Of a stretch of DNA of 57,038 bases, positions 1-5,314 are shown piece after piece. Made by a program: the position numbers and the translations under genes. Each line of letters starts with the position of its first letter. The stretch's first letter is position 1. The notes beneath the pieces were generated by a model. The model was not told the origin of the DNA and did not search any database. It worked only from the letters and a program-made list of their open reading frames with translations. Source of the DNA: an uncultured SAR116 cluster alpha proteobacterium (GTDB lineage: Bacteria > Pseudomonadota > Alphaproteobacteria > Puniceispirillales > Puniceispirillaceae); the NCBI GenBank assembly GCA_902583715.1, contig CACHXC010000007.1:1-57038 (forward strand), given 5' to 3'.

Positions 1-64
1 TATGCTAAGCTATTCATATTGATTGATTCAGTCGCGAATTGGCGCTTGAGATAGGCATCGAACC

Positions 65-81
65 TCCTCTCGAGTGCGCCA
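65..81 (+). repeat. tRNA-Arg(CCG) 3'-end remnant 0
   Basis: Seventeen bases ending in GCGCCA match exactly the last 17 bases of the intact tRNA-Arg(CCG) at 4097-4173 (minus strand), but on the + strand. The preceding TCGAAC also resembles the T-loop, with a small indel. It is too short to be a tRNA gene; I read it as an old attachment-site scar. The rest of 1-277 shows no gene or clear signal apart from the start region of the following ORF. Confidence 0.6.
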
Positions 82-277
82 TTGCCCTCTCTTGATTTCT
101 TACAACTAACAGCAAAAAATGTTGCTCGAGACCTACAATCGTAATGCTGAAGCTTTGAGCGTTGATTGTCAGGGGCAATACAATACAATATCATACCATT
201 AGTCTGCATCCTTCTCCCTCATACTGGGCTGACCAAGTGTTAAATTTTTCCTCGAGCATGATTTTTATTGGTGATAA

Positions 278-1195
278 ATGAACCGAAACCATCCTCTCTT
301 CTTGAAAAACCGTCACGTCACACTTACCGAATTTGGGCACATTACAGCACTCGATGAGCATGATGAAAGTTTCGAAATTTCAAGTGATGGCGGCAAAAAA
401 CTTAAAATGCAAAAGATGTATCACAAATGGCCGCATACACTCCAAAAGTGCAGGAAATGTCTCGCTCGTGGAATACGAATAGTCACACGCTGTAGCGCGA
501 GTTTGGATGAGGGCAGTTTTTTCAATGAAGTATATATCGACCCAAATGGAGCACCTTTGCTGGCCTTCCCACCTGACGGCGAGGATGCTCCCAACACCGT
601 TGAACAACTTATAATGGAACGAATTTGGAAACAAGAAGTATGGGCGGAGGATATTAGCAATCGAAAAGACTTAACACTTGAACAAAATCGATTCAAAAAC
701 GCACTGGCGCAACAGTCAGATCGGGATAAATTTCTTACAGAGAGGACAACTGAGTTTCTTAATAATCGTTATTCAGAGTTTTCAATCAAACGGCTACAAC
801 ATTTGTACATTGATGAGCATACCCGGAGACGAGCCGCAATGCGACTGGGTATAAATTTAGCTGGGCATTCAAATCTGAAGGTGCATCTCGAGGGGCATCT
901 TTACAATACAAACTTCATTCATGTGACTTTGCCTGAGTTTGGTGGCATTGATGGTATCATCGGACTACATCGTAAAGAAGATGGAAACCAGTGGATATCC
1001 ACAATAAACAATGGTGACAACAAATGGTGGGAACATGAAAGCAAAATTGCATACGAAAAGGACGTCGACGAACCGATTGCTCATTATTTAAAAATTTTTA
1101 GCGAAATTCTTAATGATCGGCACGAGCTAGAAAAAACAAAAAAACCAGGGGCTAATGTCCAGCAGACCATTATAAAGTTTCCAAAAAAACCTTGA
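278..1195 (+). CDS. hypothetical protein, orphan cargo gene
   Basis: A 305-residue protein that I do not recognise. It has no signal peptide or membrane segment. It is rich in Lys, Asn, His and Glu, carries one CxxC pair (Cys58, Cys61), and has two similar stretches, HVTLTEFG near residue 13 and HVTLPEFG near residue 216, which could mark an internal duplication. The ATG follows GGTGATAA, a modest ribosome-binding site. Base composition is clearly more AT-rich than the core genes. It is the only gene between tRNA-Arg fragments at 65-81 and 1417-1464, so it is best seen as cargo of an integrated element. Function unknown; that it is a real gene rests on length and an intact frame. Confidence 0.7.
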   Translation: MNRNHPLFLKNRHVTLTEFGHITALDEHDESFEISSDGGKKLKMQKMYHKWPHTLQKCRKCLARGIRIVTRCSASLDEGSFFNEVYIDPNGAPLLAFPPDGEDAPNTVEQLIMERIWKQEVWAEDISNRKDLTLEQNRFKNALAQQSDRDKFLTERTTEFLNNRYSEFSIKRLQHLYIDEHTRRRAAMRLGINLAGHSNLKVHLEGHLYNTNFIHVTLPEFGGIDGIIGLHRKEDGNQWISTINNGDNKWWEHESKIAYEKDVDEPIAHYLKIFSEILNDRHELEKTKKPGANVQQTIIKFPKKP

Positions 1196-1287
1196 CAGTG
1201 AGATTGCGGTTAACTGCGCCGTTACAATAATTCAATCACTTTTAAGTACACAAATATTCTTTTTGTAAAGTTATGTTCACCGAAACA

Positions 1288-1464
1288 TTGCTCCAAAGTT
1301 GCTCCAAAGCTTCGAAGCAGACATGACAATAGGCTTCATCTCAACCATGAGTGATGATACTGTTGTGCATTATAAACCGAAGCTTGCTAATAAATGAGGA
1401 AGGAATTATTGCAATGGCCCTCCTGAGGCAGAGGTCAGAGGTTCGAATCCTCTCAAGTGCGCCA
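1288..1464 (+). repeat. cassette-end unit 1 (doubled 11-mer plus tRNA 3' end)
   Basis: This 177-nt unit aligns without gaps to the unit at 2093-2269. It begins with two perfect tandem copies of TTGCTCCAAAG (1288-1298, 1299-1309), continues through a conserved middle (shared ACAATA, GCTTCA, AATAAATGAG and AATGGCCCTCC) and ends with the tRNA-Arg 3' half. The 1196-1572 gap contains only this unit and flanking AT-rich sequence. The layout (short direct repeats at a fixed distance from a tRNA-derived core) fits the end of a tyrosine-recombinase element, with the repeats as possible arm-type sites; that role is inference. Confidence 0.7.
1417..1464 (+). pseudogene. tRNA-Arg(CCG) 3' half, fragment 1
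   Basis: Forty-eight bases matching the intact tRNA-Arg(CCG) from the anticodon stem through the anticodon loop, variable region, T-arm and CCA, with 45 of 48 identical. The 5' half is absent, so it cannot fold as a tRNA. Two differences fall in the anticodon loop and stem and one in the acceptor strand. Such 3' halves are left at the far end of elements that integrate in tRNA genes. Confidence 0.8.
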
Positions 1465-1572
1465 GACTCCATTCCAAAACCCGCGGAATGTTTACGTTTT
1501 CCAGTCGTTTTCTCGCCAATAAGAATAGTTTACTATAGTACCAAACGTGCTGCTGAGCAGAAACGCACAAAA

Positions 1573-1965
1573 TCATATTTTAAACAGATCTTCCCACCCA
1601 ATAACGAGCACCATTAAATTCAAAATTGCCACAATGGACGGGGCAATGTACCCCTCAGCAGATGTTTTTAAACCTTCGACTGAACCCCATTGACTATGGA
1701 TGGTTTGGTAGCAAACTCCAGCGCCAATGCATGCCTGCACAAAACCATAGACAAACAACAACCAAGCTCCCTCGATTGAGGTCAGTAGGGCGATGGCTAA
1801 AGTGACTGCAAAGCCGGCAGCAAAAGTGCCGACAAGTCTCGTCATTATTGCGCTTCCCTCACCAAATCCATATTTTTCTATGTATTCCCGTGTCTGGACA
1901 ATACACTGATAAGCGTAGATCAAGTTTCCAACTATTATTAGCACTATCAATGAGTAAATCAGCAT
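1573..1965 (-). CDS. small integral membrane protein, unknown function
   Basis: About 130 residues from the chosen ATG at 1965, which has GGAG about a dozen bases upstream; an earlier in-frame start at 2031 would add 22 residues that look non-natural for a membrane protein. About four hydrophobic segments are visible: residues 1-18, around 44-62, 67-85 and 107-125, separated by short polar loops, including YGFGEG after the first and EGYIAPS before the last. No family is recognised. It is the only gene between tRNA fragments 1 and 2, on the opposite strand to them, so it is probable element cargo. Confidence 0.6.
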   Translation of the reverse strand: MLIYSLIVLIIVGNLIYAYQCIVQTREYIEKYGFGEGSAIMTRLVGTFAAGFAVTLAIALLTSIEGAWLLFVYGFVQACIGAGVCYQTIHSQWGSVEGLKTSAEGYIAPSIVAILNLMVLVIGWEDLFKI

Positions 1966-2092
1966 CTCAGGGTAATTCTCCAAACTTTTTAAATCTCTGC
2001 TGTCAAAAAGACATGAACACACGCGCGGCATGGCTCGGCGTGCCGCGCATTATACCGATATTTGTATTCTTAGTTATACGTATATTTGGATA

Positions 2093-2269
2093 TTGCTCCA
2101 AAACTGCTCCAGAACGTCTCATCGGAAATAACAATACGCTTCACCCCGCTCATGAACATTGCTACGGTTGAGCACTATCAACTGAAGCTCGCCAATAAAT
2201 GAGATAGGAACTTTTTGAATGGCCCTCCGAAGGCAGAGGTCAGAGGTTCGAACCCTCTTGGGTGCACCA
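2093..2269 (+). repeat. cassette-end unit 2 (doubled 11-mer plus tRNA 3' end)
   Basis: Ungapped homologue of the unit at 1288-1464, with the same 177-nt length. Its opening pair of motifs is diverged: TTGCTCCAAAA (2093-2103) and CTGCTCCAGAA (2104-2114). The region next to the tRNA fragment (AATAAATGAG, then AATGGCCCTCC) is strongly conserved. The 2032-2686 gap holds this unit, the fragment at its end and the integrase remnant that follows. Confidence 0.7.
2222..2269 (+). pseudogene. tRNA-Arg(CCG) 3' half, fragment 2
   Basis: Forty-eight bases with 44 identical to the intact tRNA-Arg(CCG), covering anticodon loop to CCA. The anticodon loop is unchanged, and the four differences lie in the T-arm and acceptor strand. 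Without a 5' half it is not a functional tRNA. It sits about 100 bases before a decayed integrase reading frame on the same strand, the order expected at an integration junction. Confidence 0.8.
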
Positions 2270-2372
2270 TTACCTAAATGAAGATAATCACATAGTTACC
2301 AGTTTAGGGTATCAGTCTGTTTTCAAAAAAACGCAGTTTTGGCACAGATTTGACATAGTAGAGGTCAAATCG

Positions 2373-2642
2373 ATGGATTGTGTGCTTAGAAGAGGGAAGT
2401 CTTGGAATGCCCAAGTCAGGATTGTTGAATAGCAGGTTTTCACAAAGTCCTTTGGCAAAAAATCAGATGCATTAAGTTGCTAAGACCGTATCAAGCAAAA
2501 CTTGGAAAACACTAGAGTGTTTTGGGACTTAGAGAGATATCAGCAAAAGTTTGTTAGACAAGAAGTCAAAGAAACGCAATCGGATATCGAAAACCACACA
2601 ATGGAATTAGTCTGGTTAAACGTTATTCATGCCAACCTTTAA
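2373..2642 (+). pseudogene. decayed tyrosine recombinase (phage integrase) N-terminus
   Basis: Reading from ATG 2373 gives MDCVLRRGKSWNAQVRIVE, then a TAG at 2430. The same frame continues with QVFTKSFGKKSDAL, a TAA at 2481, then about 50 open codons to the TAA at 2640. The pattern R-G-K-S-W-x-A-Q-V-R followed by K-x-F-x-x-K-x-D-A is the arm-binding N-terminal domain found in many phage-type integrases (RKRGKSWxAQVR...KTFxTKxEA). The catalytic domain (R..HxxR..Y) is absent. Two in-frame stops and no further homologous sequence make it a pseudogene. Position directly after a tRNA 3' fragment supports the reading. The assignment rests on motif recognition only. Confidence 0.55.
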
Positions 2643-2686
2643 GCACTTTAAAATGTAATTTATATGTTGCGTCTGAGATCAACAAA

Positions 2687-3217
2687 TTATTTGAAAGTGC
2701 CTTCAATAAGTGCTTTTTCGATTATCGAACTACCGAAATCTTTTTCAAATCTGTCTAACGTATATTTAACTGCGCTAAAACCTGTTGCTTTTGCTTTGAC
2801 ATCTTCTCTCTGAGCATAGATAGCAATTCTGTATGTATGCTCTCCATCAGGAGGACACATTCCTTTGTAACCCGACCCGCCATGACCCTTGCCGATAGTT
2901 CCCGCAGGTTTGGTTCCAACGTCCAACGAAAAATCGCGAGTGGTAACTGGTATGTTAAAAACATTCCAATGAACCCACACTTTGCCAGCAGGTTTGATTG
3001 CATCAGGATCGTCCACAATTATGGAAATACTTTTCGTGTCTGCAGGCAGATTCGATGCAGAAATTTGAATACTCTTATCTTTGCCACCTTTTTGTCTGCA
3101 TGCGTGGATCTTGCTTATTTTTCCATCAACAACACTCTCAGACGTTAGATTGATTTCCGCATTAGCAGTCTGTGACCACAAAAGAAATCCAACAAAAAAC
3201 AATGATACAAACTTCAT
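2687..3217 (-). CDS. secreted YbhB/YbcL-type PEBP (Raf kinase inhibitor-like) protein
   Basis: A 176-residue protein with a Sec signal peptide (residues 1-20, predicted cleavage after ANA) and a phosphatidylethanolamine-binding-protein fold. Family motifs are clear: VDDPDA near residue 68, HWNVFNIP near 83, and GSGYKGMCPPDGEHTYR near 114-130, which form the anion-binding pocket. An ideal ribosome site AGGAG lies six bases before the ATG. The exported location is firm; the cellular role of bacterial PEBP proteins is not well defined. It lies between the integrase remnant and psiE, so it could be accessory cargo. Confidence 0.88.
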   Translation of the reverse strand: MKFVSLFFVGFLLWSQTANAEINLTSESVVDGKISKIHACRQKGGKDKSIQISASNLPADTKSISIIVDDPDAIKPAGKVWVHWNVFNIPVTTRDFSLDVGTKPAGTIGKGHGGSGYKGMCPPDGEHTYRIAIYAQREDVKAKATGFSAVKYTLDRFEKDFGSSIIEKALIEGTFK

Positions 3218-3547
3218 TTCTTACTCCTAAGGAAAGCAGAATGATTGTCGTGAAAACAATAAAACATTCAGGTATGAAAAGTTAATCCATTATAGTCGCA
3301 AGTTCAAATGTTCTTGTGTGCACCACAGCGGACACCGGGCCAATCAGGCCCAAAACGTGTTTCCAGGCCGATTGTGACGTTACCTTTTGCTATCATTTTG
3401 AACACCCCTATACGAGTGTTATATTATAATGTGATTCAGGGCGCCTTGCGAGAGGGCATGCTTAGTGAAAATCGCACCTAAAGGTAACGCGCGGATAAAT
3501 GTAGAAGCTGTAAACTTAGGTTCAAGGATCACTGAAAGCTGATTTGT
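3218..3547. other. intergenic region without a recognised gene
   Basis: About 330 bases between the PEBP gene start and the end of the PsiE-family gene. I see a short GGGCC/GGCCC hairpin near 3335-3352 and an AT-rich stretch near 3418-3432, but no convincing ORF, RNA or terminator. It may hold the promoter of the PEBP gene. Confidence 0.4.
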
Positions 3548-4012
3548 TCAGTGGTTAAATTTTTCAGGCTCTCTTAACTTTTGCTTTTCCAAACTCAGCT
3601 TGTCTTTCAGGCTCATTAAATATGCTGCAACGGCCAACAATACAATCGCGCCAGCTTCAGCAATCAGCATCCAAGGATCAGCTTCTTTTGAGTGCAGTAC
3701 GATTAACCTGCACAAGGCAGTCATTGCAATGATGATTGGCAATGTAACCGGAATTCTGTTGCTTACGTAAAAAGCGCCAACCATACCTACAATCTCAGCA
3801 TAAATGAAAAGTAAAAACAAATCACCTAATTCGATACTCATTGCCAGGATCATTTTATAAATGTCCATACCTGCGGCAAGCATCGTTAACCCCCCTATCA
3901 CAGCAAGAAGAAACTTCTCACTGTAGAAAGTTGTCCAATGCAATCCTTTGTCTAGCCGCTTATTGAGAAAGAGAGGTATCCAATCAGAGCCTTTTTCTGG
4001 TTTCTTTTTCAT
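3548..4012 (-). CDS. PsiE-family membrane protein
   Basis: A 154-residue inner-membrane protein with about four transmembrane segments (around residues 33-50, 60-80, 86-106 and 114-134). The central block DLFLLFIYAEIVGMVGAFY followed by IPVTLPIIIAMTALCRLIV matches the PsiE family (phosphate-starvation-inducible in E. coli), where a conserved acidic residue lies in the second helix. The C-terminus is a charged cytosolic tail. No Pho box was recognised upstream, so phosphate control is not shown here. It follows the intact tRNA-Arg on the same strand and may be core or island. Confidence 0.75.
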   Translation of the reverse strand: MKKKPEKGSDWIPLFLNKRLDKGLHWTTFYSEKFLLAVIGGLTMLAAGMDIYKMILAMSIELGDLFLLFIYAEIVGMVGAFYVSNRIPVTLPIIIAMTALCRLIVLHSKEADPWMLIAEAGAIVLLAVAAYLMSLKDKLSLEKQKLREPEKFNH

Positions 4013-4066
4013 AATGCCTTCAAAATTTCAGCCATGCGTTAATCGTTTGGAAACAGTCACTGTATC

Positions 4067-4084
4067 CAAGGTCCACGGACCTTG
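4067..4084. other. near-perfect palindrome downstream of tRNA-Arg
   Basis: CAAGGTCC and GGACCTTG flank a two-base centre (AC), 13 bases beyond the CCA end of the intact tRNA-Arg. It has no T-run on either strand, so it is not a classical terminator. It could act as a processing or termination hairpin for the tRNA transcript, or be linked to the integration site. Confidence 0.45.
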
Positions 4085-4096
4085 AAACATGGAAAA

Positions 4097-4173
<77 letters not shown>

Positions 4174-4345
4174 TGAAATGCCGTCATCTGCGGGCCATGC
4201 CCACACATAATGACAGGTGTTTTACCCGGTTGTGCGGGCAAAGCCAATAGCCTGCCAGCAAAATAATTTTGTCACTAAGCTGGGCGCTAAGACAAAAGCT
4301 GTCTTGGTCCCGCGGTGCGCCGCGTTTGGCGTGTGGGCTGGTGGG

Positions 4346-5314
4346 CTATTGTGTTAGGCTGATAAATACATCTTCCAGATCAGGCTCGGCGGTACTGATA
4401 TCACGCACCTCAAATTTTGCTTTTTGCACCTCTGCCAACAGCGCCAGCGTTGTTGTTTTAGCCGGGTCAAAACTTATAGAGAGCCGCCCATCCCGCCAGA
4501 CCGCTCCCAGCTGTTGCAGAGTTTTTGGCAAAGGCGATGCTGGCGGGCTGTCCAATGTTAAATGCAGATGTTTTTTGCCGGCAGAGGCCATCAAATCAGC
4601 TTTTGATTTGGCGGTGATAATGCGGCCCTTATTAACAATTGCAATCTGGTCGCAGAGTGCTTCAGCCTCTTCCAGATAATGCGTTGTCAGCACCACGGTG
4701 ACACCAGTCCCGTTCAGCGTTTTGATATTGTTCCATAACCGTTGGCGCAACGCCACATCGACACCGGCTGTGGGTTCATCAAGAATCAACACTGGCGGTT
4801 GATGCACCATGGCTTTGCCAACCAATAGCCGCCGCCGCATACCGCCTGATAGCCGGCGTGCATACATATCGGCTTGTTCAGCCAGCCCGACCATATCCAA
4901 AATAGCGTTGGTCTGGCGTTCGGCTTTGGGTACGCCATATAATCCCGCCATCAAATCGATGGTTTGTCGCGGCGTGAAGAACGCATCAACATTCAGCTCT
5001 TGTGGAACGATGCCGATATTGGCCCGTGCTTGCCGCGGGTTTTCATCAATGTCGGTGCCCCAAACAATGGCCATGCCAGATGTTTTAATAACGGTGCCAG
5101 CCAGAATATTAATCAAGGTTGATTTGCCTGCACCATTCGGGCCAAGCAGACCAAAAATACATCCCGCTGGCACTTGCAAATCAACATGATTGAGGGCCAG
5201 ATGCGATGGCTTGCCAAGGCTATCACGATAAGTCTTTGACAGGCCTGACAATTCAATCGCCAGACCAGAGTCTGGCCGGTTCACAAAATTTTGGCGAAAG
5301 CGCGTGGTGGGCAT
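4346..5314 (-). CDS. ABC transporter ATP-binding protein (ABC-2 / drug-type)
   Basis: A 322-residue ATPase subunit. Walker A GPNGAGKST is near residues 59-67, the Q-loop VPQE near 104, signature LSGGMRRR near 156, Walker B VLILDEPTAGVD near 176 and the H-loop TTHYLEE near 212. An extra C-terminal domain (about 235-322) is typical of CcmA/YadG-like ATPases that power ABC-2 exporters or lipid/drug efflux. The permease is not adjacent on either side (tRNA-Arg downstream, the zf-CHCC gene divergent), so the substrate cannot be deduced. The start has upstream in-frame alternatives inside the chosen N-terminus, which is poorly conserved up to about residue 17. Confidence 0.9.
   Translation of the reverse strand: MPTTRFRQNFVNRPDSGLAIELSGLSKTYRDSLGKPSHLALNHVDLQVPAGCIFGLLGPNGAGKSTLINILAGTVIKTSGMAIVWGTDIDENPRQARANIGIVPQELNVDAFFTPRQTIDLMAGLYGVPKAERQTNAILDMVGLAEQADMYARRLSGGMRRRLLVGKAMVHQPPVLILDEPTAGVDVALRQRLWNNIKTLNGTGVTVVLTTHYLEEAEALCDQIAIVNKGRIITAKSKADLMASAGKKHLHLTLDSPPASPLPKTLQQLGAVWRDGRLSISFDPAKTTTLALLAEVQKAKFEVRDISTAEPDLEDVFISLTQ

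Follow-up and report, generated by a model that had tools for sequence, protein, structure and literature searches.

A cis-mobilizable element retains both attL and attR, while its integrase is absent. The tycheposons attributed to Hackl et al. 2023 are said to combine a tRNA target, a tyrosine recombinase and metabolic cargo in a marine host. A passage in PMC10872708 gives their size as 4-200 kb. Additive flexible genomic islands with tRNA direct repeats are described, in portions of two papers, for Ca. Actinomarinales (PMC7771536) and as fGI-2 of Methylopumilus (Methylophilaceae; PMC10872708). In Dehalococcoides, ssrA-specific islands have been identified, and part of PMC3146451 reports the integration module in 16 of 31 of them. 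The general rule, as worded in part of the Islander paper (PMC4383910), is that the target is regenerated and a fragment is displaced; sections of PMC11389934, a review of mobilizable elements, give the context. For SAR116, the words genomic island and integrase are absent from the portion seen of the main text of PMC8547437, as are the words tRNA and integrase from that of PMC12421898. The titles and abstract beginnings covered by a partial literature survey contained no description of SAR116 tRNA-Arg arrays.

The tRNA-Arg fragments of the window

The window analysed here is a stretch of 57,038 nucleotides from an uncultured SAR116 cluster alphaproteobacterium and comprises the entire contig C7 of a genome bin (60% complete, 1.49 Mb, 51 contigs), so that the contig begins at base 1. 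It was compared with 136 genomes at the level of the order and 61 at that of the family, the latter including the window's own; the relatives are mostly draft genomes of different species, and the comparison is one between species only. The following features were assigned.

5-82, plus strand: putative right-end att region, degenerate and of a third type, with 17 nt from the tRNA-Arg 3' end (65-81) as its terminus; alignment with relative G018
278-1195, plus strand: 305-aa cargo ORF; ORF list
1256-1464, plus strand: attR of a GCTCC-type element, double arm 1288-1306, core 1417-1464; profile (training copy), exact arm, core 45/48
1573-2031, minus strand: 152-aa cargo ORF, small membrane-protein-like, membrane character judged by eye; ORF list
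2060-2269, plus strand: attR of another GCTCC-type element, with its arm at 2093-2111 and its core at 2222-2269; profile (training copy), core, arm
2270-2519, plus strand: left end belonging to an element with a different type of integrase; tblastn, alignment, DNA match
2687-3217, minus strand: gene of the phosphatidylethanolamine-binding-protein family; Pfam PF01161, E = 7.2e-24
3548-4012, minus strand: PsiE-family gene; Pfam PF06146, E = 9.5e-20
4097-4173, minus strand: intact tRNA-Arg(CCG), the attachment gene; tRNA calls, Rfam, gene order

A preliminary description had reported three partial copies of the tRNA-Arg(CCG) 3' end on one strand, and all three lie on the plus strand within 2.2 kb, two of them strong and one weak. 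The long fragments 1417-1464 and 2222-2269 correspond to positions 30-77 of the intact tRNA with 45/48 (93.7%, E = 4.9e-15 in the own genome) and 44/48 identities (91.6%, E = 1.1e-13), as had been stated. The core scores at the three places are 42, 40 and 18, compared to a best score of 15 in 300 dinucleotide shuffles of bases 1-4090. The third copy, 65-81, consists of 17 nt, all identical to the tRNA-Arg 3' end, and is weak when taken alone (profile E = 1.5). Bases 5-82, however, align with L026:13369-13292 of G018 over 79 nt with 77% identity, both sequences halting at the tRNA end; it is these roughly 80 nt of surroundings, recurring in a relative, that lend support to the fragment.

The long fragments were also said to end homologous units of 177 nt. 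The two units are 76% identical across 178 nt, and a profile extends their homology to about 210 nt (1256-1464 and 2060-2269); since both window units were used to build the profile, its scores for the nine training units are circular, and the one unit beyond the training set, in G043, had been chosen by its arm pattern. In the aligned units, two 7-mers with an 11-bp period are followed by about 100-112 nt (110 nt in the window) and then by the 3' part of the tRNA from the anticodon arm.

Ahead of the intact tRNA-Arg(CCG) lie an ABC-ATPase-like gene and polA; many mapped relatives have the same gene order, the names of the flanking genes being assigned via similarity clusters and by eye. Within bases 1-5000, Rfam reported a tRNA at 4100-4173 only, and for this reason a tRNA-Arg(tcg) called by ARAGORN at 2187-2284 on the minus strand is probably spurious. 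The 60 nt past the intact tRNA (4037-4096) match relative G017, and the joint stretch 4037-4173 is 94% identical; a hairpin recognised by eye in 4037-4096 may be the tRNA terminator or a further left end. The gene at 2687-3217 has matches in 5 of the 61 family genomes including its own (E <= 0.001), two of the four others being weak, and constitutes flexible content between the array and the tRNA. The PsiE-family gene at 3548-4012, with matches in 18 of the 61 (own included), is flexible and adjacent to the tRNA. In G022, two identical intact tRNA-Arg(CCG) copies are present (C49:51-127 and C21:79165-79241), each near a contig end. The drafts G016, G031, G044 and G059 likewise break near tRNA-Arg(CCG), as expected for the site of a variable island.

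Two features had been overlooked in the preliminary description, namely the orientation of the array and an integrase remnant. Since the intact tRNA is encoded on the minus strand, the fragments are inverted relative to it. In G007, G015, G020 and G027, which carry tRNA and fragment on one contig, the repeats share the direction of the tRNA. The gene for the 152-aa protein is antisense to the tRNA in G017 and G028 and antisense to the fragments in G018; its orientation in the window is antisense to the fragments and sense to the tRNA. The opposite direction of the array requires either an inversion in the lineage of the window or a chimeric contig.

The remnant, at 2270-2519, is what is left of a further element, namely its decayed left end and the start of its integrase. 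It contains a decayed double arm (2341-2358) and an N-terminal integrase remnant of 49 codons with internal stops (2373-2519). By tblastn it matches tRNA-Arg-adjacent integrases of G038 and G039 (E = 3.9e-7 and 7.7e-7), and the DNA matches run through the tRNA-integrase junctions of L032, L033 and L037.

Arm sites and integrases in relatives

A search of the 136 order-level genomes for the double arm TTGCTCCANNNNTGCTCCA gave eight exact copies, every one of which belongs to family f1 and adjoins a tRNA-Arg(CCG) 3' end or fragment. Four are right arms 101-112 nt before the core, and four are left arms 46-47 nt past the tRNA end. When one mismatch was allowed, 29 matches were obtained in 23 of the 136 genomes, against four for the reversed pattern; 11 of the 29 lie beside a tRNA-Arg(CCG) 3' end or fragment, consisting of the eight exact copies and 3 of the 21 with one mismatch. 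For the other 18 no link to tRNA-Arg was seen; the one closest to a fragment, in G004, is 0.9 kb away from it.

The matching left arm lies 46-47 nt past the tRNA-Arg end in four relatives and adjoins an integrase gene in two of them. In G037, 47 nt separate the intact tRNA from this arm, which overlaps the start region of the gene for a tyrosine integrase of 335 aa, and the arrangement in G050 is the same, with the integrase gene cut by the contig end. With relatives (E <= 1e-40) in 50 of the 136 genomes, this integrase belongs to a common protein family without specificity for the site. Other arm types that share the 11-bp layout were recognised by eye at this tRNA, G039 and G056 being examples. 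A related integrase of G015 is located at a tRNA-Phe 3' end (L197:14464-15743), which is a second site of integration some 58 kb downstream from tRNA-Arg.

Decay of the integrase gene was seen in several relatives. In G007, the single-cell genome AG-894-E05 of the SAR116 cluster (same family; CABYIQ010000002.1), the 1,055 bp after the tRNA contain a left arm, 16 integrase codons, two small genes, a right arm and a tRNA fragment. In G028, the left arm is mutated and about a dozen integrase codons remain. Eleven intervals with att sites of the same strand on both sides were collected, two from the window, three from G018 and one each from G005, G007, G015, G020, G027 and G039; two of these (window 82-1464 and one in G018) depend on the weak end of the 5-82 type. 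An integrase was identified in the G015 interval (itself one of the queries), an integrase with an in-frame stop in that of G039 and the 16-codon stub in that of G007, while 8 of the 11 gave no match to the 14 local integrases; a Pfam integrase search of 16 genomes, including those bearing the intervals, agrees at these places. Neither window interval (1,383 and 805 bp) has a recombinase match, and 82-277 and 1465-1572 have no integrase match. No GCTCC left arm follows position 81 or 1464, so the window intervals, in which a left arm is not recognisable, are incomplete elements. For a second element in G020, no far end was found up to record coordinate 941,000.

The preliminary description had considered such an array untypical for this lineage, as far as known. 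At least 20 tRNA-Arg 3' fragments are present in at least 13 of the 61 family genomes (G000, G004, G005, G006, G007, G015, G018, G020, G025, G027, G038, G039 and G043), and the array is therefore not atypical. The fragments were counted by hand and had to begin no earlier than tRNA position 17, end within positions 75-77, and show at least 80% identity over at least 39 nt; matches of less than 80% identity, possibly to other tRNAs, and one of 33 nt in G009 were left out.

In wider searches, none of 11 arm-plus-tRNA loci on viral contigs had an arm-only profile match at E <= 1. Named genome contigs contained 75 such loci; the arm profile was matched by L143 (G005) and L191 (G007), an arm with a tRNA-Pro-like end was present at seven betaproteobacterial loci (L119, L142, L153, L161, L189, L190 and L192), and the remaining 66 were judged by profile score, the matched stretch being inspected for 7. 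For phage records, the 20 listed of 122 matches involved the tRNA only. The sequence TGCTCCANNNNTGCTCCA, the same double arm, lies within about 140 nt of tRNA-Pro(CGG) in betaproteobacteria (L257:7535-12863, L259:9076-9246, L262:9482-9715 and L263:511-685), with an adjoining 462-aa integrase at L259. This hints at a wider group of integrases that can be found by their arms. Similar double arms precede what was taken by eye for the 3' end of another tRNA at L171:2118-2259, L179:2953-3094 and L193:13-154, and the arm may therefore serve further tRNA types.

Cargo genes and their turnover

The 305-aa and 152-aa ORFs were found where they had been placed before. For the 305-aa protein, no Pfam match above the cut-off and no match in PHROGs, NCBIfam or PADLOC was obtained. 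Its ORF has matches in 8 of the 61 family genomes including its own, the other seven being 45-63% identical; none of the 28 family genomes with at least 90% completeness and at most 5% contamination contains one. The 152-aa protein is without a family match, and its ORF has matches in 19 of the 61 genomes (own included). Four window genes and three cargo genes gave no defence-gene match.

One gene per event, as had been suggested, fits the two window intervals only; intervals elsewhere contain an ABC transporter operon of five genes, an operon of four genes, or 28 kb of DNA. In G005, the transporter operon encodes a pair of ATPases, a pair of permeases and a binding protein of the branched-chain amino acid type; the second ATPase was assigned by clustering, and the remaining four genes were scanned. 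The cargo of G018 comprises a sulfatase alone, a four-gene operon and a DHFR-containing group, in which the GTP-cyclohydrolase and pterin-enzyme neighbours were named by eye. The four-gene cassette (L075:4858-8775), located between two tRNA-Arg fragments, codes for proteasome-like, transglutaminase, Alpha-E and ATP-grasp proteins. The cargo of G020 is a TPR-sulfotransferase with two small genes, and that of G007 an 89-aa protein with a DUF2784 protein.

Variable gene content behind conserved boundaries had been expected to support serial integration, and different genes do lie behind similar boundaries in the relatives, as seen between species only. Of the nine homologous right ends, eight have different genes in front of them, and the ninth (G005:390) lies at a contig start. 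G005 and G007, with right arms 87% identical, were rejected as an example of similar ends with different cargo, the G005 cargo lying beyond the contig start. After the common end of the 5-82 type, the window has the 305-aa gene and G018 the DHFR-containing group. G018 has both this end and an end beside the 152-aa gene, the 3' end of which adjoins the att unit as in the window, and other genes adjoin both ends.

A fixed arrangement of the three fragments with the same genes, sought in G017, G028 and G018, was found in none of them. The distance between the 152-aa gene and the tRNA is 3.7 kb in both G017 and G028, where the 3' end of this gene does not adjoin an att unit; the 305-aa gene lies 27 kb from the tRNA in G017 and on a separate contig in G028. 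No fragment was found next to either gene in these two genomes; the link between gene and att site is therefore not constant, and this placement speaks against a strict history of one scar and one gene.

Origin of the array and comparison with known systems

The units of the window are best read as the right ends (attR) of tyrosine-integrase elements. Such units belong to an integrase family that adjoins the same tRNA in two relatives, and they therefore represent scars of serial integration at tRNA-Arg(CCG) with cargo retained, a well supported reading that upholds the earlier proposal of one scar per event. The array as a whole is with high probability a fossil stack of such elements. This reading builds on the att anatomy, its recurrence at tRNA-Arg, the integrases with a matching left arm in two relatives and the integrase remnants. 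The tRNA-Arg(CCG) would serve as the attachment site for several tyrosine-integrase element families in the SAR116-type family, with a crossover presumably in the anticodon arm. An incoming element would restore the tRNA with its own 3' half, and the old 3' half would be displaced outward as a fragment marking the far end of the element. Successive integrations would stack, and integrase genes would presumably be deleted or truncated later while some cargo was kept, probably by selection. The stack would consist of two GCTCC-type right ends (1256-1464 and 2060-2269), the degenerate end 5-82 and the decayed left end 2270-2519, separated by single cargo genes, and would later have been inverted relative to the tRNA, unless the contig is chimeric.

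The fragments might instead have been kept for a function of their own, as regulatory elements or functional tRNA-like RNAs, and two 3' halves still 92-94% identical to the tRNA would agree with this; the 5' half of the tRNA is, however, missing from the fragments and replaced by arm sequence, the copies in relatives are variously degraded, and the Rfam search recognised the intact gene alone, so that this explanation is extremely improbable. Chimerism, in which the array and the tRNA-polA region would come from different places and have been joined by assembly, is suggested by the incomplete and fragmented bin and by the contradictory orientation, including that of the 152-aa gene in comparison to G017 and G028. 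On the other hand, the repeats of at least 20 nt in bases 1-5000 are att units and tRNA parts only, with none between 2272 and 4088, where the switch would fall, and the best relatives of the array genes are within the same genus, which makes a chimera quite unlikely.

The cassettes could also still be mobile, as integrase-less minimal units with conserved ends that a helper element's GCTCC-arm integrase moves in trans. The G007 element, with both arms, a tRNA end on each side, two small genes and the 16-codon stub, would fit such a unit, as would the 9 of 11 intervals that are integrase-free or contain a stub only and the eight different gene contents preceding eight homologous right ends. 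Against this, the intervals of the window, G018 and G005 are without a recognisable left arm, the window arms are only 67% identical to each other, and no match to the G037 integrase at E <= 1e-40 is present in what has been assembled of the window's genome; continued mobility is thus rather improbable. It is likewise unlikely that SAR116-type bacteria hold integrase-less operon cassettes with conserved arms as a stock anchored on a tRNA, moved in trans by helper integrases in an integron-like manner with tRNA fragments replacing attC. The fossil stack remains the preferred reading, with the first observation of the fragments confirmed and its interpretation supported in part. It suggests how little-cultured ocean bacteria acquire single operons at one fixed chromosomal spot, with a transporter, a sulfatase and small membrane proteins as examples of what was gained at tRNA-Arg. 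The G037 integrase and its arm sites form a concrete testable pair, along with the 1,055-bp integrase-less element of G007.

Among the known systems, an assignment to integrons or CALINs was rejected, since the G037 integrase reaches 50.4 bits with the integron-integrase model, below the cut-off of 265, and the window is without such a gene. The likeness to tycheposons drawn in the preliminary description is reasonable as an analogy: tRNA target, tyrosine recombinase (here in relatives), metabolic cargo and marine host are shared. An assignment to them was nevertheless rejected, with window intervals of 0.8 and 1.4 kb against the size range given in part of PMC10872708, and no recombinase match in either. 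Cis-mobilizable elements and tandem accretion share integrase-less units between att sites with the present locus; both ends are kept in the G007 element, whereas the window intervals keep one. The Dehalococcoides islands, as far as described in the portion of PMC3146451 used here, are likewise tandem islands divided by 3'-end repeats of one RNA gene, many without an integration module, but depend on a serine recombinase, while tyrosine integrases are present here.

Closest are the additive islands, which, in the relevant parts of PMC7771536 and PMC10872708, consist of small cassettes ending in a tRNA 3' direct repeat and stacked at the tRNA, with variable cargo, in aquatic bacteria. Several tRNA 3' repeats at one locus are present in the window, and variable cargo lies behind similar ends, as seen between species only. 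In contrast to the islands as described in those parts, att arms and a cognate integrase (in relatives) are identified here, lineage and tRNA are different, and the array is inverted; an integrase beside the tRNA with matching arms is present in G037 and G050, and the window has a remnant of another arm type. Since its repeats do not run in the direction of the intact tRNA, the window can be filed only as a rearranged derivative. The locus is thus of a kind already known, that of the additive islands with tRNA direct repeats, of which the window contains a rearranged copy.
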